Shown here: in pieces, positions 5,375 through 52,341 of the stretch | How the letters are laid out: the number at the start of each line of letters is the position of its first letter | How positions within the stretch are numbered: position 1 is the stretch's first letter | From: Pseudomonadota bacterium | GTDB taxonomy: Bacteria > Pseudomonadota > Gammaproteobacteria > Burkholderiales > Rhodocyclaceae | Assembly (NCBI GenBank): GCA_018262095.1 | Contig: JAGTRW010000007.1 | Location: 62,001 to 126,000, forward strand | DNA length: 64,000 nt | Direction of reading: 5' to 3' | Position numbers and translations under genes: made by a program | Notes under the pieces: generated by a model | The model's database searches: none | What the model was told of the DNA's origin: nothing | Seen by the model: only the letters and a program-made list of their open reading frames with translations

Positions 5375-8164
5375 TCAGGCGTTGGCACGCATCACGAACT
5401 TCAGGAAATCGTCGAGCGGTAGCGGATGACTGAACAAATAGCCCTGGTAGGTCGGGCAACCGTTGCTCAAAAGAAATTCCCGCTGCTCCTCGGTTTCAAC
5501 GCCCTCGGCGATTATTTTCAACCCCAGGCTCCCGGCCAGGACGATGATCATTTTTGCGATCGCGGCGTCATTGGGGTCGGAATAGATATCGCGGACGAAG
5601 CTCTGATCGATTTTCAGTTGATCCAGTGGCATGCGCTTCAAATACGAGAGCGATGAGTAGCCGGTACCAAAGTCATCCAGCGAAAAACCGACGCCCTTGG
5701 TCTTGAGCAAAGTCATCTTGGCAATGATGCCCTCCGCATCGTCCGCCAGCAGACTCTCGGTCAATTCGAGCTTGAGCCGCTGCGGATTGACCTTGCTGCG
5801 CTCCAGAACGGCCAGCACTTGATCGACGAAACTCGCCTGGTGCAATTGGCGCACGCTGACATTCACGGCAACCGAAAGCTGTGCCGTTGCGGGGTGAGCT
5901 GCCCATGCCGCCAATTGGCTACAAACGGTTTCCAGCACCCATTGGCCGATCGGAAAGATTAGCCCGGTATCCTCAGCCAGGGGAATAAACTCGCCCGGAG
6001 ACACCAGGCCACGTTCGGGGTGCTGCCAACGCAACAGCGCTTCAGCGCCGAACACGCGCCCGGAAGAATCGACCTGTGGCTGATAGTAAACAAGGAACTG
6101 CTCCTGCCGAAGCGCCTCGCGCAAACCTGCTTCCAGCGCCGCGCGCGTGTTGACGACCGCCTGCATTTTCGGGTCGAAGAAACGAAGGGTATTGCGGCCC
6201 GCCGCCTTGGCCTGATACATCGCCAGATCGGCGCGCTTGAGCAGATCATCGACGGCGTCCTGATCGTCGGCGAACAGGGTAATGCCAAGGCTGGCCGTGC
6301 TCCGATGGGTGTAACTGCCGAGCAGGTAGGGCGCACTGAGATTGGCGAGAATCTTTTCGCCAACGACTTCAACCTGGGTCGCCGCTTCCTGCACATCCTC
6401 ACTCAGATCCTCCAGCATCACCACGAACTCGTCGCCGCCAATGCGCGCCACCGTGTCGCCCTCGCGCACGCAGCCGGTCAAGCGCTTGGCCACCTGCTGC
6501 AACAGGAGGTCGCCGGTGTCATGGCCCAGCGTATCGTTGAGCGTCTTGAAGCTGTCGAGGTCGAGAAACAGCAGCGCCCCTTCCCGCTTATGGCGGGATC
6601 TCGAGGCGAGCGATTGCTCAAGCCGATTGAACAGCAGCCGCCGGTTCGGCAATCCGGTCAACTGGTCATAGAAGGCGAGATGCTTGATCTCTTCTTCCGT
6701 TGACTTGCGCAGCGTGATGTCCATCACCACGGAGCGGATTCCGGTGATGTTGCCCGCCTTGTCGCGAAGAAGTTTGTCGTCGATGAGCATCGGAATCAAC
6801 GTTCCGTCTTTGCGTACGAAATTCCGCTCAAAGTTGATCCCGGGGGACGACGCGCCGGCGAGTTTCGCCAATACCGCTTTCTTGGAATAGATGGAATCCT
6901 CGACGTATTCCCACGTGTAATGCCCCAGCATCTCTTCCAAAGAGTAGCCCAGGCTTTCAAGCTCGGTCTTATTGACACGAGTAATGCGGCCCTCGGCGTC
7001 AAACTCGTGATAGCCGATGGGAACTTCGTCAAAGAGCTCCCTAAGCTGATTCTCGCTCTCTTTTCGGGCCTCTTCCCGGATTTTAAGCATCGCCAGAAAA
7101 CGGTTGAATCCCCCGATCAACTGACCGATTTCGTCGTTTTTGGCGATCGGCAAGGCCTCGGCAGGCTCGTCGGCAACCGACATCTGCCCCAGCCGTTCCA
7201 GCGTCGCCAGCAGCGGCGATAGCTGTCGTTTGAGTAGCCACCAACCCAGCCCGCCAATCACTACGGTAAGCAGGATGGTCGCCAGCAACAATCGCTTTTG
7301 CATGGCGCGGATCGGTGAAAAGGCCTCGCTGGTGGGCAGATTGGCTTCCAGATGCCAACCCGCCAAAGGAATGTGCTTGACCGAGGCCAGCACTTCCACG
7401 CCACGGGGGTCGGTGTATACGACGGCCCCCTCACGACCTCGATACAAGCGCTCGATCAGCGGGTTGACGGCCTGCGTCGGGCTCTCTCCCATGACGCGGC
7501 TTTTGTCGGTGGCGGTCACGATCAACTGCTGTTTCGTGGCCACCAGCAAATAACCGCCGGCATTGCCGTGACTGTTGTCAGTCAGCTCGTCGAGAAAATT
7601 GGGCTTTCCCAGATTGGTAATACCCGCCAGAGCACCGATCACCTGGCCCTGATAATCGCGGACCGGTACGGCGATGAGAAAGATGGGCGTCCGCAGCGTC
7701 CTGCCGATGATCGGTCGGCCAATTGTCGCTTTCCCGTCCTTGAGGGCGCCGACCAGATAATCCCGATCCAGATAATTGAGACCGATCCGCTCTTTCGCCA
7801 ACGGCGCTGTGGCAATAGCCGTGCCATCGAGTCCGTAGGCCATGACCCCATCATTGAATAAATGGCTGTAAGGATGTTGTTCGAGAAAGGTCTGCACCGA
7901 CGGCGCGCTGCTCATCATCACCGGATGAATGCCTTCGGCCAGGTTCTCCAGAACCTTTAGCCGATCATCCACTTCCCGATTGACCTGCGTGGCGAGCAAG
8001 GAGACCGTCGAAAACTGCTGCTCGCCCAAAAGGCGTTCCATATCCAAACGCAAGGCATGGCTGGCGTAGTACGACAACGACCAGATGCTCAGAAAGAATA
8101 GAACCAGCGTGGTCAGCGTAATTCGGATCTTCAAGGAATGCCGTTGGAACACACTATCCGTCAT
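5375..8164 (-). CDS. Membrane Cache-HAMP-PAS-GGDEF-EAL protein, c-di-GMP synthase/phosphodiesterase
   Basis: About 929 residues from the chosen ATG; an upstream in-frame ATG at 8272 would add 36 residues lacking membrane character. Order: transmembrane helix (about 12-32), periplasmic double-Cache sensor (about 35-280), second helix (about 293-313), HAMP, PAS (about 365-480), GGDEF (about 490-650) and EAL (about 665-920). IGGDEFVVML is an intact diguanylate cyclase signature. GAEALLRW, DDFGTGYSSL, KIDQSF and AEGVE are intact phosphodiesterase motifs. Both activities are therefore possible, as in many hybrid proteins. The Cache domain suggests control by a small extracytoplasmic ligand. Confidence 0.92.
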   Translation of the reverse strand: MTDSVFQRHSLKIRITLTTLVLFFLSIWSLSYYASHALRLDMERLLGEQQFSTVSLLATQVNREVDDRLKVLENLAEGIHPVMMSSAPSVQTFLEQHPYSHLFNDGVMAYGLDGTAIATAPLAKERIGLNYLDRDYLVGALKDGKATIGRPIIGRTLRTPIFLIAVPVRDYQGQVIGALAGITNLGKPNFLDELTDNSHGNAGGYLLVATKQQLIVTATDKSRVMGESPTQAVNPLIERLYRGREGAVVYTDPRGVEVLASVKHIPLAGWHLEANLPTSEAFSPIRAMQKRLLLATILLTVVIGGLGWWLLKRQLSPLLATLERLGQMSVADEPAEALPIAKNDEIGQLIGGFNRFLAMLKIREEARKESENQLRELFDEVPIGYHEFDAEGRITRVNKTELESLGYSLEEMLGHYTWEYVEDSIYSKKAVLAKLAGASSPGINFERNFVRKDGTLIPMLIDDKLLRDKAGNITGIRSVVMDITLRKSTEEEIKHLAFYDQLTGLPNRRLLFNRLEQSLASRSRHKREGALLFLDLDSFKTLNDTLGHDTGDLLLQQVAKRLTGCVREGDTVARIGGDEFVVMLEDLSEDVQEAATQVEVVGEKILANLSAPYLLGSYTHRSTASLGITLFADDQDAVDDLLKRADLAMYQAKAAGRNTLRFFDPKMQAVVNTRAALEAGLREALRQEQFLVYYQPQVDSSGRVFGAEALLRWQHPERGLVSPGEFIPLAEDTGLIFPIGQWVLETVCSQLAAWAAHPATAQLSVAVNVSVRQLHQASFVDQVLAVLERSKVNPQRLKLELTESLLADDAEGIIAKMTLLKTKGVGFSLDDFGTGYSSLSYLKRMPLDQLKIDQSFVRDIYSDPNDAAIAKMIIVLAGSLGLKIIAEGVETEEQREFLLSNGCPTYQGYLFSHPLPLDDFLKFVMRANA

Positions 8165-8376
8165 CGGGGTCAATACCGTAGGAAATACAGTTGATCCAGT
8201 CACATATCCGAAGGGGAGCTGCCGCTGAACGAACGGCAATACGTCTTCGTTGTCGGATTCGACAAAGCACACCAGCAGCGTTCGAGCCCATCACGAATGG
8301 GCAAGACGATATCCTATAGGTCGGCGTTAAGCAATCCAATTGCTTGGAGCAAATCGGAGATCCCGCCGTTCGCGGA

Positions 8377-43584: not shown

Positions 43585-44838
43585 TTATTCCGATAGTCGC
43601 CCCTTCGCCGCGGCCATCGCACCAGGAAGGTCGGCGAGCGCGACGGCGACGATCGCAGCGTCGACATCGCCGCGACCGGCGAGCTCGCGCATGAAGTCGC
43701 GCACCGCGTCGGCCGACAGGCCGGCGCGATAGGGGCGATCCTGAACCATCGCCTGGAAAATGTCGGCGACGCGCAGGATGCGCGCCTCGAGCGCCAGCGC
43801 CTTGCCCGGCAGATGGAAGGGATAGCCGTCGCCGTCCGGCTGTTCGTGGTGACAGGCGGCCCAGCGCGCGATCTCCGCGAAGCCGGGAATCAGGCGCAGG
43901 ATCAGGAAGGTTTCGAAGCTGTGCGCGTTCATCAGCGCGCGCTCGCGCTCGTCGAGCCGCGCCGGCTTGTCGAGGATCTCATCGGCGACGCGCAGCTTGC
44001 CGATGTCGTGCAGCAGGCCAGCGATCTCGATCTTGTCGCAGTTGTCCGCGCCGACCCCCAGGCGCTGGGCGAGAAAACGCGCGAGGCGTGCGACGCCGAG
44101 CGAGTGCTGCGCGGTGAACGGGCTTTTGGCGTCGACGATGCGCGAGAAGATCGTCGCCAGCTGCCGAAGTTCGTGCATCGTCGCAGCGTAGGGCTCGCCC
44201 TGCGCCAGCATGTCGGCGAGGTAGGCCTGAATGCCGCGCGCTTCGAGGTTGAGCCAGAAGGCTTCGGCGCGCGACGCGACGAGAAAAGCGTCGACCAGTT
44301 CGGGCAAAAAGTAGCTGTTGGCGTGCGCCGCGAGCTGCGCACGGATACGCGGCACGTGCAGCAGCAGACTGCCGTCGGCGTAGTGCGGCGCGGCCATCGC
44401 GTCGACGCGGTCGACCAGGTAGATCAGGTTGGCACGCCGTGCGACCTCGCGCTCGACGCCTTGCTCGAGCAGCGTCGGCCAACGCGTGTGGTGGTACTTG
44501 ACCGGCAGCGCCAGCGCCGCCAGCGGCGCGAAGTCGCGCAGCAGCGCGTGGCCGACTTCGCAGTGCCCCTGCGAGCTCTCCCAATCGAATTCGGCGACCA
44601 AGTGGTAATGCGTCACCGTCGACGAAACGCCGATGTCGTGCAGCAGTCCGAGGTCGAAGAGCAGCGCCGTCTCGCCCGCCGTCAGCCCCATCTGCTGCGC
44701 GCACTGCGCGGCCATGATGCCGACGCGCTTGCCGTGTGCGATGTCGTCGATGCCGACCAGGTCGAGCGCGTCGGACAGCGCGTAGATGACCCGGCGAAGG
44801 TCGGCGCGCAAGGCGTGGTCAGAGGTGGACAGGTCCAT
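43585..44838 (-). CDS. HD-GYP c-di-GMP phosphodiesterase with an extra N-terminal HD domain
   Basis: 417 residues. N-terminal HD-type domain about 20-180 (LLHDIGVSSTVTHYHL, KYHHTRW) and C-terminal HD-GYP about 215-405 with LLHDIGKLRVADEIL, HSFETFLIL, HHEQPDGDGYPFHLPGKAL and RILRVADIFQAMVQDRPYR. The metal-binding and GYP residues are present, so c-di-GMP hydrolysis is expected. No receiver or membrane domain is visible. Monocistronic. Confidence 0.9.
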   Translation of the reverse strand: MDLSTSDHALRADLRRVIYALSDALDLVGIDDIAHGKRVGIMAAQCAQQMGLTAGETALLFDLGLLHDIGVSSTVTHYHLVAEFDWESSQGHCEVGHALLRDFAPLAALALPVKYHHTRWPTLLEQGVEREVARRANLIYLVDRVDAMAAPHYADGSLLLHVPRIRAQLAAHANSYFLPELVDAFLVASRAEAFWLNLEARGIQAYLADMLAQGEPYAATMHELRQLATIFSRIVDAKSPFTAQHSLGVARLARFLAQRLGVGADNCDKIEIAGLLHDIGKLRVADEILDKPARLDERERALMNAHSFETFLILRLIPGFAEIARWAACHHEQPDGDGYPFHLPGKALALEARILRVADIFQAMVQDRPYRAGLSADAVRDFMRELAGRGDVDAAIVAVALADLPGAMAAAKGRLSE

Positions 44839-46732: not shown

Positions 46733-46796
46733 ACACAAAGTGCAATTGCAGAAGCATCGTCCGCTACAATGCCGGACATGTGCTGAGGGCGAAATC

Positions 46797-48038
46797 ATGG
46801 CTATGCAAAAAACCCGCGTCGACCATCTGCAACCCGGGGTCTTCATATCCCTTCCCAACATCGGTTGGTTGAATCATCCTTTTTTGCTCAACGAGTTCCG
46901 CATTTCCAGTGCGAAGCAGATTCGCGTCCTGCAAGAGATGGGGCTCGAGGAAATTTCCTGGGATCCGGCGCGCAGCAGCGCGACGCCATTATCCCTATCG
47001 CCACTTGCCGTTGAAGAAGACTTCGGCGCCATGGCGCTCGCCGGCATGCTTGACGAGAAACGTTCGCGCATCGAACGGGTCCGTGTGTGCCGCGAACAAT
47101 TCGCTCGCCGCGAGCGCGAGTATGAAAAGGACACTGAGGCCGCCAGCGATATTTTGAAGTCCTTTGCTGGCCGGCCGACGGCGGCCCATGCGCAGAGCCA
47201 GGCGCTGGTCTCGAACGTCCTGAGTGGCCTGCTCAACGCCGAGAGCGAAGTCATCCATCTCGTCAGCAGCAAAGCCAAGGATGCCGGGCAAGCCTCCCAT
47301 TCGGTCAACGTCATGGTGCTTTCGCTGCTGCTTGGCAAAGCCATGCGCTTGTCGGAAGAGGAAATGAAGTGGCTGGGGATGGGCGCGCTACTCCACGACG
47401 TTGGCAAGTCGGAGGTGCCATTGCGCATCGTCCGCTCCAGCAACCGCACCAAACCCGAAGAGGATTTCTATCGCGCGCACGTGGCCTATGGCATCAAGGT
47501 CGTTGCGGGCGTTCGCGATCTCGGCGCGCCGGTCAGAAACATCATCGCCTGCCACCATGAATACTGGGACGGTAGCGGCTACCCGAACCGGCTGACTGCC
47601 GACAAGATTCCGAAGCTGGCCAGGCTGGTATCTCTGGCCAACCGTTACGACAATCTGTGCAACCCCTTTGATATCCAGCAGGCCAAGACGCCGGCAGGAA
47701 CCCTCTCGCATCTCTTCAAGAATGAAACGGCGCGTTTCCAAAGCGAACTGCTGCAAACCTTCGTCAAGGTGCTCGGCGCCTATCCGCCCGGCAGTTTTGT
47801 CGCGCTGTCGAACGGCGCCGTTGGACTGGTGATCGAGTCGAACTCGGCCGATATCCTGCACCCCTTGCTGATGCTGCACGACCCCGAGATTCCGCGCACC
47901 GAAGCCATCCTGATCGATCTACGGGGTACCGATCTGAACATCGTGAGCGCAGTCAATCCGGCGACGCTTCCCCTCGAAGTCGTCGAATATCTGGCACCGC
48001 GCGGTCGCGTGGATTACTACATCGAGGGCGCCGGTTGA
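46797..48038 (+). CDS. HD-GYP c-di-GMP phosphodiesterase with DUF3391 N-terminal domain
   Basis: About 413 residues. DUF3391-type domain 1-130 (QPGVFISLPNIGWLNHPFLLN at the start) with a charged helix, then HD-GYP about 145-330: LLHDVGKSEVPLRIV, CHHEYWDGSGYPNRLTADKI, SLANRYDNLCNP. All HD and GYP residues are present. GAGGGC precedes the ATG at 46797; an ATG two codons later is equally possible. The low-GC island begins right after it. Confidence 0.9.
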   Translation: MAMQKTRVDHLQPGVFISLPNIGWLNHPFLLNEFRISSAKQIRVLQEMGLEEISWDPARSSATPLSLSPLAVEEDFGAMALAGMLDEKRSRIERVRVCREQFARREREYEKDTEAASDILKSFAGRPTAAHAQSQALVSNVLSGLLNAESEVIHLVSSKAKDAGQASHSVNVMVLSLLLGKAMRLSEEEMKWLGMGALLHDVGKSEVPLRIVRSSNRTKPEEDFYRAHVAYGIKVVAGVRDLGAPVRNIIACHHEYWDGSGYPNRLTADKIPKLARLVSLANRYDNLCNPFDIQQAKTPAGTLSHLFKNETARFQSELLQTFVKVLGAYPPGSFVALSNGAVGLVIESNSADILHPLLMLHDPEIPRTEAILIDLRGTDLNIVSAVNPATLPLEVVEYLAPRGRVDYYIEGAG

Positions 48039-48118
48039 ACACCGGCCAGCGCAAAATTCGCAAAATTCGAACCTGGCCCCTTTTACTGCCCTTATTTCAT
48101 TCTTTTATATGCGGATAC

Positions 48119-49390
48119 TCAACGTTGAATTTCGAATCGCACAAGCTGATAAGTAAACTCCCCAAATTTCGACTTTTCGTCCAAATGGACGATTATGCCG
48201 AGGTCTTCTATAAATACTTTTTTATTAATGACGTCGTTATTATCAGAAGTGCACGACAGTCCAAAAGCTCGGCCTGTTAGCGTTGAGAATACTGTTTCGG
48301 CACCTACTTCATCGACAACATCACAAAGAATAGATACCCGCATTTCCTTATCATTCACTTTAGGTGGCTGCGCTCTCATGACCTCAATTGCACTCAGCTT
48401 TGCACCTTTGTTAAGGATGGCAGGCAGAGATATGTTGAGATCGGTTGTAAGGACAACACGACCATCCCCCACGCCATTCATGTGCGCTTTCAGTTGAACT
48501 AACCCAGCAAGCATCAGCCGTTGTACATTGAAGTTTGGGCTATAAATCTCCTTTACACGCACCAGCCCATCCTGAACCTCCATTTCGATTGTCGCTGAGC
48601 TTTCTCTAGGCGGATTAGCTGTCTTTGCGATGTATGTGTAGCTCAACTTTTTGAACTTAGGGATCCAATTCGTGCTATGGGCGACCTTGGCTACACTCTC
48701 GGGGATTTGTACGTCATCAAACAGTGTTGTTGAAAGCTGTTTCGGATAATCTTTGGGGATAATGTCTGGCCGTATTTCTTGGAGAATATCTGCAGTTACT
48801 CCTCCTTGTAATGAACAGCTTACGCGAACAACATCTTTCCGAGTTTCATGCGGTTCGATCAGAAATACGCGTTCAATTTTGTGGAGGCCTACAGCAGTGT
48901 TCGAGCTCGTAGCCAATGGAATCCAACGCGATCCGAGGACTTTGATTTCCGTACGGGCATAGCTCCCATCATCACGCCGTAGTCGTTCACCACTGTGAAT
49001 TAGAGGTTTGAGCTTCTGGACGACATCCTCCACATTACCTGAAACCAGGAAGCCCCAATATAAGTAGAGCCCCATACTATTCAAGTCGGAAATTTCGTCG
49101 AAATAGGAAAGTAGCTTCAAACCGCCTACTGTTGGGAAATTTGAGAAATCGATATTGTTGTCACGTTGTTCATAACGATTTTTGACTTTTATCCAACTGT
49201 ATTTCCCGATATTTTCTAATGGCGCTACCAATTTCCAAGCTGCTGTTTCTCGATTTAGCGTACGAAAGATACCTGCATCGCAATACGAAAAATCGCGGAA
49301 AGTGTCTTCAAAAACGTCAGCATGTGCACTCGTCAGAACTGAAATCAGCAACCCGAAAACACAACAAATTCTCTTTATTTTATTGCTCAT
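48119..49390 (-). CDS. Exported protein of unknown function in a low-GC island
   Basis: 423 residues with a Sec signal peptide ending in SAHA (about 21-24). Codon use and base composition are clearly more AT-rich than the surrounding genes. No family recognised: the mature protein mixes beta-rich stretches (IKVLGSRWIPLATSSN, RVFLIEPHETRKDVVRVSCSLQGG, GDGRVVLTTDLNISLP) with a few cysteines (CSL, ILCDVV, LSCTSD) that could form disulfides. No transmembrane segment after the signal. It may be the last gene of a minus-strand unit that starts at the c-di-GMP riboswitch at 50.3 kb, 850 bp upstream. Confidence 0.7.
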   Translation of the reverse strand: MSNKIKRICCVFGLLISVLTSAHADVFEDTFRDFSYCDAGIFRTLNRETAAWKLVAPLENIGKYSWIKVKNRYEQRDNNIDFSNFPTVGGLKLLSYFDEISDLNSMGLYLYWGFLVSGNVEDVVQKLKPLIHSGERLRRDDGSYARTEIKVLGSRWIPLATSSNTAVGLHKIERVFLIEPHETRKDVVRVSCSLQGGVTADILQEIRPDIIPKDYPKQLSTTLFDDVQIPESVAKVAHSTNWIPKFKKLSYTYIAKTANPPRESSATIEMEVQDGLVRVKEIYSPNFNVQRLMLAGLVQLKAHMNGVGDGRVVLTTDLNISLPAILNKGAKLSAIEVMRAQPPKVNDKEMRVSILCDVVDEVGAETVFSTLTGRAFGLSCTSDNNDVINKKVFIEDLGIIVHLDEKSKFGEFTYQLVRFEIQR

Positions 49391-49446
49391 TAATTGTTTT
49401 ATCCATAAATATGTTCAACTAACAACACATCACCTTTGAATAACCG

Positions 49447-49662
49447 CTAAGGCAGAACTGCGGCCCAATTGGGTTGCGCAATAGCGGTCAGAGTGATTTG
49501 GTGTTCTGCAGCCAACGAATACGAAACCAGTTTGCCCGGAAGGACGGAAATGACTTTGACCCCAATGGCTCTCGTGATCAGCGTGTTGTCCCAGACCGTT
49601 TTCTTGCCGTCGGCCTTGCCCTGCGACCGGCTCGCGTTGAGCTGGAACGAGAGCCTGTTCTT
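49447..49662 (-). pseudogene. Reading-frame fragment without a start, possible gene remnant
   Basis: A 71-residue open frame on the minus strand reads coherently, e.g. GKKTVWDNTLITRAIGVKV, then SYSLAAEHQITLTAIAQPNW, and ends at 49447. It is preceded by an in-frame TGA (49663-49665) and has no ATG, GTG or TTG with a ribosome site. It looks like the 3' remnant of an unidentified gene inside the low-GC island. Confidence 0.35.
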
Positions 49663-50164: not shown

Positions 50165-50201
50165 ACAAAAAAGCCCTCGGTCCAGATGGAGCGAGGGCTT
50201 T
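50165..50201 (-). terminator. Intrinsic terminator downstream of the c-di-GMP riboswitch
   Basis: On the minus strand AAAGCCCTCG and CGAGGGCTTT form a perfect 10-bp stem with a 12-base loop, running into six T. It begins 36 bases after the aptamer's last paired base, the standard position for an expression platform that ends transcription. An 8-bp palindrome (AAACGCAT/ATGCGTTT, 50220-50236) lies between and could take part in the switch. Confidence 0.85.
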
Positions 50202-50236
50202 ATGGAAATCATCTTCAACAAACGCATCATGCGTTT

Positions 50237-50320
50237 GGCGGCCCCGCTGTCATAGAATTCTCCTTAGACTGGAAGCTTTGCGTCGCCAACTTTCGTTGGC
50301 TTTGCCCTCTGTGGCCGGCA
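50237..50320 (-). ncRNA. Cyclic di-GMP-I (GEMM-I) riboswitch
   Basis: On the minus strand, in order: GGCC (P1), AGGGCAAA (50301-50308), stem GCCAAC-GAAA-GTTGGC with a GNRA tetraloop (50285-50300), the hallmark GACGCAAAGC (50275-50284), an 11-nt tetraloop receptor made of TCTAAGG (50262-50268) and TATGAC (50249-50254), AGCGGGG (50242-50248), and GGCC closing P1. These are the conserved parts of the class I c-di-GMP aptamer, in the right order and spacing. A TATAAT at 50320-50325 would start transcription at about the first aptamer base. A terminator follows, so it probably controls transcript elongation. Confidence 0.87.
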
Positions 50321-50431
50321 TTATATCCGATTCAGGTAATAAAAATCCTGCCGCATCTTGCCACAGGCATTCACGGACCGACGATTTTTATGCCCTTTCA
50401 CTGCTGGCCGATCGCGCGACGGCGCTGCCGC

Positions 50432-51271
50432 TCACTTTCGACGCGCTGTCTCGGCCAGCGCCACGAGCCACGGTTCCAGCCGTCTTCCGAAAGCGACGGT
50501 GGCCGAAAACGAGCCTGTTTTGGCCGCCGCTGCAGGCGGCTTAAGTGCCGGCTGAAATTGAAGCGGCACGTTGATTGGCGCGATGCTGAGCGCGGCGATA
50601 TGGCCGCGCAGGCTATCCTGCCGATCGCGCGTGGCCCGCTGCGGACGGACCTGGCCGCGCACGATCAGGGTGTGCGTCGGGTCGGGATACTGCGCGCGCA
50701 AGGCTGCCGCGTCGAGGCCGGCATCGACGACGAAGAGGCGGCTGCTGTCACTCGCCTCGCGCTTGGCATTGTCCCTGGCCCGCTTGGCGCGTCGTTCGAA
50801 TTCCTGGTTGCCGGGGTTGGCCAGCTGCAGTTTCTCTTCGTCGTCGGCGCTCTGCTGCGCGCGCGCCAGCGCTTGCCGATACGCCGGACCATCGAATTCG
50901 AGCACCAGCAGCACTTCCTTGCTGCGCCACGGCTTGAATTTCCGGCGCGCGGTGTCCGAGCCGACGTCGAAACCCAGCGCGGCCAGCTTGGCCTGGTCGA
51001 GCCAGTCGGCAGCGCCGCCGTAGGCGCCGTAATCGGCGCCGTCGGCGTCATTGCCGCGGCGAACCCGCCAGACGAGGCTCAAGGAAACGCCGCTGTTTTC
51101 CTTGCTGCTGACCCGGCCATAGGGCAGTTGCAGTTCGCGCTCGCTCAAATGCAGGATGCTGGTCGGCTCGCCGCTGCGGTTGTAAGCGACGCCGGCCAGC
51201 GCGAAGACATTGACCGCGATGATCAACAGGGCGCCGGCGATCAGCGTGCGCCGCCTGCTCCAGGCGATCAT
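50432..51271 (-). CDS. Membrane-anchored protein, DUF4824-like
   Basis: About 279 residues: one N-terminal helix (LIAGALLIIAVNVFALAGVAY) then a soluble domain with SERELQLPYGRVSSKENSG and SLVWRVRRG, matching the DUF4824 family as recalled. Start at 51271 overlaps the stop of the DUF2157-like gene (ATGA), indicating a functional pair. Last gene of the minus-strand TCA operon; no known function. Confidence 0.65.
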   Translation of the reverse strand: MIAWSRRRTLIAGALLIIAVNVFALAGVAYNRSGEPTSILHLSERELQLPYGRVSSKENSGVSLSLVWRVRRGNDADGADYGAYGGAADWLDQAKLAALGFDVGSDTARRKFKPWRSKEVLLVLEFDGPAYRQALARAQQSADDEEKLQLANPGNQEFERRAKRARDNAKREASDSSRLFVVDAGLDAAALRAQYPDPTHTLIVRGQVRPQRATRDRQDSLRGHIAALSIAPINVPLQFQPALKPPAAAAKTGSFSATVAFGRRLEPWLVALAETARRK

Positions 51272-52341
51272 CGCGCGCCTCCCGAACTCAGGCTGGCCGT
51301 TCGCAGGCGTTTCAGGATGAGCAGGATCAGCACGGCAAGCAGGCCGACGACCAGGAAGAAGAGATACTTCGGCATGATCTCCCAGCACCAGTCATAAAGT
51401 TTTGTGTAGAGAAAGATCACGAAGAAGGTGATGCCGGTGTTGATCACCTCCGGCCAGCCGCGCCGCGCGCCGAGCCAGATGGCGCTGGCGCTGAGCGCGA
51501 AGCCGAAGAGCTGGTAGCCGCCTTCGATCACGCTGTTGTCGAGATCGAGGTAACTGGCGCCACCCCAATGCGAGAGCACCAGCACCGGCAGCAGCGCGGT
51601 GAGCAGGCCGAACACCCGGTAGATCGGCAGAAATTCGGCAAAGCGCCGGCGATGAAGCAGCGACGGAACGATAAAGAGCAGCAGCGCCGCCGGCAAGAAG
51701 TTCTCCGGACGCTCGCCGAAAGACAACCAGTACATTCCGCTCCAGGTCCCGGTGCGCGCCGAGATATAGGCGATGACGCAAAGGATTCCGGCCGCCAGCA
51801 ACAGCCGCAGATCGCAGCTGTAGGCGAGCAGCAAGGCATAGGCGGCCCAGGCAAGCAGCGCCTGGTCGGACGGGGTGATGTTGAAGATCTGTCCGAGCAT
51901 GACGACGTTGAGCACAAAACAGACGAAGGCCAGCAGCGCGGCGAGCTTGGTGAAATAGCCCGAATGGTCGCGCCCCTGCAGCCACAGCGTCGCGATGAAC
52001 GAGCCCAGCGCCGCGCAGACCAGCAGCCCGACCTGGACCGCCGTCGGCAAGCCGCCCCAGAACTGGTAGAAAAGAAAGAGCACGCTGGCCGCCAGCGCCA
52101 GTGCGCCGAGCAAGGACGCCACGCGCATGCCGAGCGAGAGCTGCCCGGCCTTGACGTCCTGATCGATGTCGAAGCGCTGCGCATAGCCGGCCAGCAAGGC
52201 CCGGTGATATTCGGCGACGGCGGCGGCCTGCGCTGCGGAAAGCTCGAGAACGCCTGCGCGCTGCAGGCGATCGGCCTCGCGCCGGAAGACGCGGATTTCG
52301 TCGGCGCGTTGCTGAGCCTCGCTGCGAGTAGCCTGGGTCAT
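51268..52341 (-). CDS. Multi-pass membrane protein, DUF2157-like
   Basis: About 357 residues. A short cytoplasmic start (about 1-75) leads into eight to ten hydrophobic helices, e.g. MRVASLLGALALAASVLFLF and LVGLLAVLILLILKRL at the end. The pattern fits DUF2157 membrane proteins paired with DUF4824. It begins 122 bp after lpd on the same strand; probable read-through from the TCA operon, but a functional link is not established. Start at 52341 chosen because the 37 extra upstream residues look non-coding. Confidence 0.65.
   Translation of the reverse strand: MTQATRSEAQQRADEIRVFRREADRLQRAGVLELSAAQAAAVAEYHRALLAGYAQRFDIDQDVKAGQLSLGMRVASLLGALALAASVLFLFYQFWGGLPTAVQVGLLVCAALGSFIATLWLQGRDHSGYFTKLAALLAFVCFVLNVVMLGQIFNITPSDQALLAWAAYALLLAYSCDLRLLLAAGILCVIAYISARTGTWSGMYWLSFGERPENFLPAALLLFIVPSLLHRRRFAEFLPIYRVFGLLTALLPVLVLSHWGGASYLDLDNSVIEGGYQLFGFALSASAIWLGARRGWPEVINTGITFFVIFLYTKLYDWCWEIMPKYLFFLVVGLLAVLILLILKRLRTASLSSGGAR

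Follow-up and report, generated by a model that had tools for sequence, protein, structure and literature searches.

The minus strand of the 64-kb window, that is, the whole stretch of DNA analysed here, carries a class I c-di-GMP riboswitch. The class is confirmed by comparison with the Rfam model, and binding of c-di-GMP is predicted from the sequence. The aptamer is followed by a hairpin and an intrinsic terminator. Its construction and the genes behind it are uncommon among related copies. With moderate confidence, the element is read as an OFF switch that acts by transcription attenuation, in which ligand binding and the start site are predicted and the polarity and targets are putative. 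The features of the region are collected in Table 1.

Table 1. Position and basis of the riboswitch features and of the genes around them, in coordinates of the window
Feature	Position	Strand	Basis or remark
-10-like box TATAAT	50320..50325	-	TANAAT recurrence in terminator-type copies
c-di-GMP-I (GEMM-I) aptamer	50234..50316	-	cmscan, RF01051, 67.1 bits
Aptamer 5' strand GAGGGC, candidate antiterminator	50304..50309	-	complementary to terminator 5' arm GCCCTC (50198-50193)
Aptamer 3' strand GCGGGGC, second possible partner	50241..50247	-	pairs with terminator 5' arm GCCC(T)CGC (50198-50191)
Hairpin CAAACGCA-TGA-TGCGTTTG	50219..50237	-	directly 3' of the aptamer; halves CAAACGCA 50237-50230 and TGCGTTTG 50226-50219
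Intrinsic terminator	50167..50201	-	10-bp perfect stem (AAAGCCCTCG 50201-50192, CGAGGGCTTT 50179-50170), inner TCC/GGA pairs, T run (six T at 50172-50167)
First plausible downstream gene, 75 aa	49715..49942	-	two hydrophobic stretches and Shine-Dalgarno-like GGAGAGGGGA, by eye
Second downstream gene, 423 aa	48119..49390	-	signal-peptide-like N terminus by eye; AT-rich
Upstream gene, DUF4824	50432..51388	-	in 8/59 genomes including the host; stop about 115 nt before the switch
HD-GYP-like gene	46740-48038	+	HD and GYP motifs read by eye in translation
HD-GYP-like gene	43585-44838	-	HD and GYP motifs read by eye in translation
GGDEF-EAL protein gene	5375-8272	-	c-di-GMP-type

Identity and abundance of the aptamer

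At gathering thresholds, the sole Rfam match in the 64-kb window is the c-di-GMP-I riboswitch at 50316-50234 on the minus strand. It scores 67.1 bits against a cut-off of 35 (E 5.7e-11), covers model positions 1-87, and is not cut off. P2 with its GAAA loop, GACGCAAAG, both receptor strands, and AGCGGGG all align to RF01051, and AGGGCAAA occupies 50308-50301 on the same strand. The GNRA tetraloop on P2 and its receptor in P3 are both aligned and are predicted to dock. The window copy shares with the RF01051 class the full-length match, P2, the tetraloop, the receptor, P3, and the ligand-contacting G, and differs from it in its P1, which is no longer than 3 bp in the register tested and is probably untranscribed. 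The 160-nt RNA has a better fold than 200 of 200 shuffled sequences (z -3.27). An earlier note on this DNA had described a GEMM-I signature on the minus strand; every stretch that it listed was located there, and the class it proposed is upheld by the covariance model.

The base at 50306, which we take to be the equivalent of Vc2 G20, is a G in the window copy. The same position was compared in 117 copies, comprising 50 listed from close relatives and 67 among the matches listed family-wide; this set was not drawn at random and is enriched in the strongest scores. It is G in 113/117 copies and A in 4/117, one of them the copy G000:C71. The GEMM-Ib (cGAMP) mark, an A at this position, is absent from the window copy. 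In the available text of two studies, G at Vc2 G20 has a role in selectivity and indicates a preference for c-di-GMP rather than cGAMP (PMC6456294, PMC9262584).

Matches to RF01051 are present in 30 of 59 close relatives, 16 of 28 genomes of the genus, and 149 of 297 sampled genomes of the family (147 over the cut-off), and the class is thus ordinary here. The 14 control genomes contain none. Three copies were found in the host genome, namely C72 (73.1 bits), the window copy (67.1 bits), and C71 (66.7 bits). The gene behind C72 (G000:C72:115529-115623; L033 4030-4124) encodes a 189-aa protein that belongs to no Pfam family and has relatives behind the copies of G005 and G026. C71 (G000:C71:88024-88109; L034 4025-4110), with its A at the selectivity position, precedes a 785-aa GGDEF-EAL protein, and the same arrangement of an A-type aptamer before a GGDEF-EAL protein occurs in G017:C94. 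This A is described as a mark of the cGAMP-selective GEMM-Ib group in Geobacter in the accessible part of PMC6456294. Judged by its sequence, C71 is a possible cGAMP-sensing or promiscuous variant controlling a cyclic-dinucleotide enzyme. In G030:C18 (L035), two nearly identical c-di-GMP-I aptamers, at 88577-88664 on the minus strand and 89017-89104 on the plus strand, are divergent and about 350 nt apart.

The terminator and the copies that share its layout

A terminator-like hairpin lies within 150 nt after the aptamer in 8/117 copies, against 0/117 in a control stretch from +300 to +450. Two of the eight (G150 and G170) are weak and unlike the other six. These six are alike, and comprise the window copy, G006:C7, G017:C197, G023:C10, and G027:C114 from one genus, and G250:C39 from another genus of the same family. 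They are not independent, as five come from one genus and G017 and G027 are nearly identical. Their platform consists of a TANAAT box (5/6), a P1 that is short or missing, a hairpin immediately behind the aptamer, and then the terminator. About 10% of Pseudomonadota riboswitches have terminators according to the available text of PMC12452182, in which the data are not shown. A degenerate pattern for further copies of this type, built from the known ones, has matches in 41/395 family genomes; 30 of the 41 were turned into loci, and the five that contain an aptamer core are all copies already known. The five sister aptamers (L063, L064, L065, L066, and L175) have GGCATA in place of GGCAAA in the conserved 5' strand, and the triplet ATA is found at this place in 6/117 copies.

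The 10-bp intrinsic terminator claimed in the earlier note is present with its stem and T run, and relatives with the same layout back it. In a listing of inverted repeats its arms are 50170-50184/50187-50201, with 93% complementarity. The hairpin before it recurs in the terminator-type copies. A 6-bp stem right after the GCC of the aptamer is found in all six of them and in 18/111 others, and a looser test for a stem of 7-8 bp after the aptamer gives 6/6 and 25/111. Changes on both sides of a stem pair are seen twice, from C-G to T-A in G006 and from A-T to G-C in G023. The suggestion that this palindrome competes with the terminator was abandoned, because their sequences are separate and the minimum-energy fold contains both hairpins.

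The switch was also proposed to have its own promoter. The TATAAT at 50325-50320 and a layout shared with relatives speak for this part of the claim, whereas no -35 box is visible by eye upstream of TATAAT and a simple promoter and terminator scan missed the site. TANAAT is located at most 22 nt upstream of the aptamer, or just inside it, in 5/6 terminator-type copies and 2/111 others. A control stretch some 100 nt further upstream contains it in 0/5 terminator-type copies and 1/72 others. The scan, with a loop limit of 8 nt, reported neither the promoter nor the terminator at 50201-50167, as the former lacks a visible -35 box and the latter has a 12-nt interior to its perfect stem. Its output consists of other sites, with one promoter-like site inside the aptamer (expected 0.4) and one terminator-like site at 50068-50054 (expected 2.2). 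Should the -10 box be genuine, +1 is predicted at about 50313, inside the Rfam-aligned stretch and past the GGC at 50316-50314. A 14-nt inverted repeat (50334-50347 / 50383-50396, 86%, 35 nt apart) lies just 5' of TATAAT and is a possible operator or hairpin.

A GGCC/GGCC helix, earlier taken as P1, is ruled out as the canonical P1 by the Rfam alignment and the P1 register test. Its 3' GGCC (50243-50240) belongs to P3 in the alignment, with which the proposal clashes, and its 5' half is probably untranscribed. In the tested register, the window copy has only the 3 bp between GGC 50316-50314 and GCC 50239-50237. A P1 of at least 4 bp is present in 61/111 other copies, against 30.5% in a control in which strands of different copies were paired, and in one of the six terminator-type copies. 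The Cd1 riboswitch of C. difficile has no P1, still binds c-di-GMP, and is counted in the class in the available text of PMC9262584. The absence of P1 therefore does not exclude function.

Strand complementarity and the proposed polarity of the switch

The 5' arm of the terminator is complementary to two strands of the aptamer. For comparison, 73 background terminators were taken by a simple rule from the window and the fetched loci. The duplex with the aptamer 5' strand, in which GAGGGC contains the ligand-contacting G, has an energy of -13.3 kcal/mol in the window copy, and 0/73 background arms are as good. The corresponding numbers of 73 are 0 for G006, 1 for G250, 4 for G017, 4 for G027, and 14 for G023. 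AGGGC is absent from the 3' arms of the background terminators (0/73). The duplex with the aptamer 3' strand, the strand reported as the partner in Cd1, has -14.4 kcal/mol and does not stand out from the background, with 5/73 arms as good for the window copy and 11 to 35 of 73 for the other five. If the 3' arm of the terminator is constrained to be unpaired, 5/6 copies, the window copy among them but not G023, fold with the terminator 5' arm paired to the aptamer 5' strand. At the sequence level, both the duplex energy and the constrained fold thus provide an alternative pairing that excludes the terminator.

The fold with the terminator has -58.5 kcal/mol, compared with -42.3 kcal/mol when its 3' arm is unpaired. 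Given this wide margin in favour of the terminator, switching would have to be kinetic and decided during RNA synthesis. The aptamer and the terminator have no strand in common and are both present in the fold, so ligand binding should favour termination, as in Cd1. The complementarity of the arm above background likewise suggests that c-di-GMP promotes termination, by analogy with the P1-less Cd1 as presented in the available text of PMC9262584.

Cd1 is among the closest known parallels to this arrangement. The available text of PMC9262584 presents it as a transcriptional OFF switch that lacks P1 and whose aptamer and terminator can exist side by side. The window copy resembles it in the probable absence or near absence of P1 and in the coexistence of aptamer and terminator. 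In contrast, it belongs to another phylum, is associated with other genes, and has a conserved hairpin between the aptamer and the terminator. The antiterminator of Cd1, as far as the source describes it, is the aptamer 3' strand (strands T and A), whereas in the window copy the 5' strand stands out against the background.

In the proposed mechanism, RNA polymerase would start at or just inside the aptamer and produce a transcript with little or no P1. Bound c-di-GMP would lock the strands around the ligand pocket and leave the terminator 5' arm free for its 3' arm. The terminator would then form, and transcription would end after about 147 nt. When c-di-GMP is not bound, the terminator 5' arm would pair with GAGGGC, or with GCGGGGC on the 3' side, and the antiterminated polymerase would continue into the 75-aa and 423-aa genes. 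c-di-GMP would thus be expected to turn both genes OFF. Counting against this model are the missing -35 box, the wide energy margin of the terminator, the ordinary complementarity in G023 (14/73), the relatedness of the six copies, the unexceptional 3'-strand duplex, the lack of a conserved link between these two genes and the switch, and the lack of an in vivo response in the Bc1 switch described below.

The same riboswitch may have ON polarity, with c-di-GMP binding preventing the terminator, and this is the less probable direction. Both polarities are known in the class, with ON behaviour described for a Geobacter reporter and for the cGAMP-type pilM switch in the available texts (PMC9262584, PMC6456294), and the post-aptamer hairpin, of unproven role, might alter the choice. 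The coexistence of aptamer and terminator in the fold, with no shared strand, resembles the OFF-type Cd1 and argues against ON polarity, whereas the two are mutually exclusive in pilM in the portion of the source available.

Genes behind the switch and the series of copies

The OFF switch proposed here has different genes behind it in different copies. 4HB-type chemotaxis-receptor genes lie behind the terminator in G006, G017, and G023 (by Pfam) and in G027 (by similarity, same cluster). In G250, a lipoprotein-like gene without a Pfam family begins right after the terminator. The window contains no chemotaxis-receptor remnant, the best tblastn match being at E 4.2. As 4/5 sister copies precede a receptor gene that has no counterpart here, the window unit has probably lost or changed its target. 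Seven receptor paralogs with 52-62% identity are found elsewhere in the host genome, and loss of every such receptor is therefore not claimed. A class I switch with terminators also precedes the chemotaxis-receptor gene mcpE of Bacillus thuringiensis. This switch, Bc1, resembles the four sister copies in its layout, and downstream expression is unaltered by c-di-GMP in vivo in the available text of PMC11218506. Bc1 has two terminators, in contrast to the single terminator of the window copy, which no receptor gene follows.

The 75-aa gene begins about 225 nt after the terminator, compared with about 130-285 nt to the first gene at the receptor loci. Among the 59 genomes searched it is present only in the host genome, and a wider contig search yielded no relative. 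The protein matches GDT1 at 19.7 bits, under the cut-off of 27. The 423-aa gene is also confined to the host genome among these 59, and none was found in the wider contig search. Its protein has no Pfam family, even at E 10, and no resemblance to the downstream protein of G250. Partial relatives with 24-33% identity, none covering 80%, occur on 14 plasmid records from Rhizobium, Pantoea, Duffyella, and Kosakonia. A single-sequence AlphaFold model of the protein has a mean pLDDT of 31.3 and is useless. One Pantoea relative is followed by an Adhesin_E gene, and the Rhizobium relative has an Adhesin_E domain outside the matching part. A fusion of two neighbouring Pantoea genes, one of them Adhesin_E, was considered for the 423-aa protein but is not supported: there is no match to the Pantoea Adhesin_E protein, and the match in the Rhizobium protein comprises residues 348-492, outside the Adhesin_E stretch 166-232. 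The GC content is 0.40-0.47 in 48000-49499, 0.52 and 0.57 in two 500-bp intervals between there and DUF4824, and 0.56-0.72 further out.

At 12 congener lpd loci, of which 10 reach at least 6 kb past lpd and two less than 0.8 kb, none of DUF2157, DUF4824, the two reading frames, or the switch is found beside lpd. Two of these loci have distant HD-GYP relatives with 27-29% identity. As nothing of the segment lies beside lpd at these 12 loci, it is taken to be particular to the host genome, which again points to a probable change or loss of the target. These loci and the limited occurrence of DUF4824 speak against a conserved synteny of the switch, which was rejected. The earlier note had connected the switch with three c-di-GMP enzymes in the window. 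The three proteins are present, but about 42 kb separate the GGDEF-EAL gene from the switch, and the first gene downstream is not one of the HD-GYP genes. The two HD-GYP-like genes are on opposite strands within 3.2 kb, in the segment that was not found beside lpd in the congener loci.

It is improbable that the element is a relic, left behind by a lost chemotaxis-receptor gene and without an important regulatory role today. The aptamer, the hairpin pairing, and the terminator are intact despite sequence divergence from the sister copies. A relic would nevertheless fit the genes between lpd and the HD-GYP genes, which are not found beside lpd in the 12 congener loci, as well as the absence of a following receptor and the AT-rich DNA behind the element.

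Slightly less probable still is a c-di-GMP-binding small RNA of about 147 nt that stands on its own, the switch having lost its target gene and the terminated transcript itself being active. The promoter box, the full-length aptamer, and the terminator are all present, no downstream gene is conserved in the other 58 genomes searched, and no receptor match in the window is better than E 4.2. The merRNA of Bdellovibrio bacteriovorus, 445 nt long and massively expressed in the available text of PMC3627812, is a precedent; it too combines a c-di-GMP aptamer with the lack of a conserved gene downstream. It differs in length from the approximately 147 nt predicted here. Sister copies of the same layout precede genes, and within about 225 nt there is a 75-aa reading frame preceded by a good ribosome site, which argues against a free RNA.

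Very unlikely is an element that lacks its own promoter and lies in the 3' UTR of the DUF2157-DUF4824 genes, with a terminator that simply ends their transcript: it is on the same strand shortly past the DUF4824 stop and has no -35 box, but TANAAT recurs beside the aptamer in the terminator-type copies at the frequency given above and the upstream reading frames differ among the G006, G017, and window copies.

The class, the terminator logic, and the receptor context of the proposed OFF switch are already known from RF01051, Cd1 (PMC9262584), and Bc1 (PMC11218506), the last two in their available texts. For the combination of features in the six copies, no description was found in a narrow literature search, which says little. 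Tentatively, the six copies may form a distinct, movable c-di-GMP-I subtype of the family. Transcription would start inside the aptamer, P1 would be absent, and the hairpin would replace it under P3. The terminator 5' arm would compete for the ligand-binding 5' strand, and the cassette would stand before unrelated genes, such as a chemotaxis receptor, a lipoprotein-like gene, and lineage-specific genes, with the window copy perhaps a free RNA.

Six related copies from two genera, with the same platform and a different gene behind it, are a small natural series worth keeping. If the hairpin replaces P1 and the OFF logic holds, the series would reveal the workings of a Cd1-like platform in another phylum, as well as the way in which a riboswitch passes from one gene to another.
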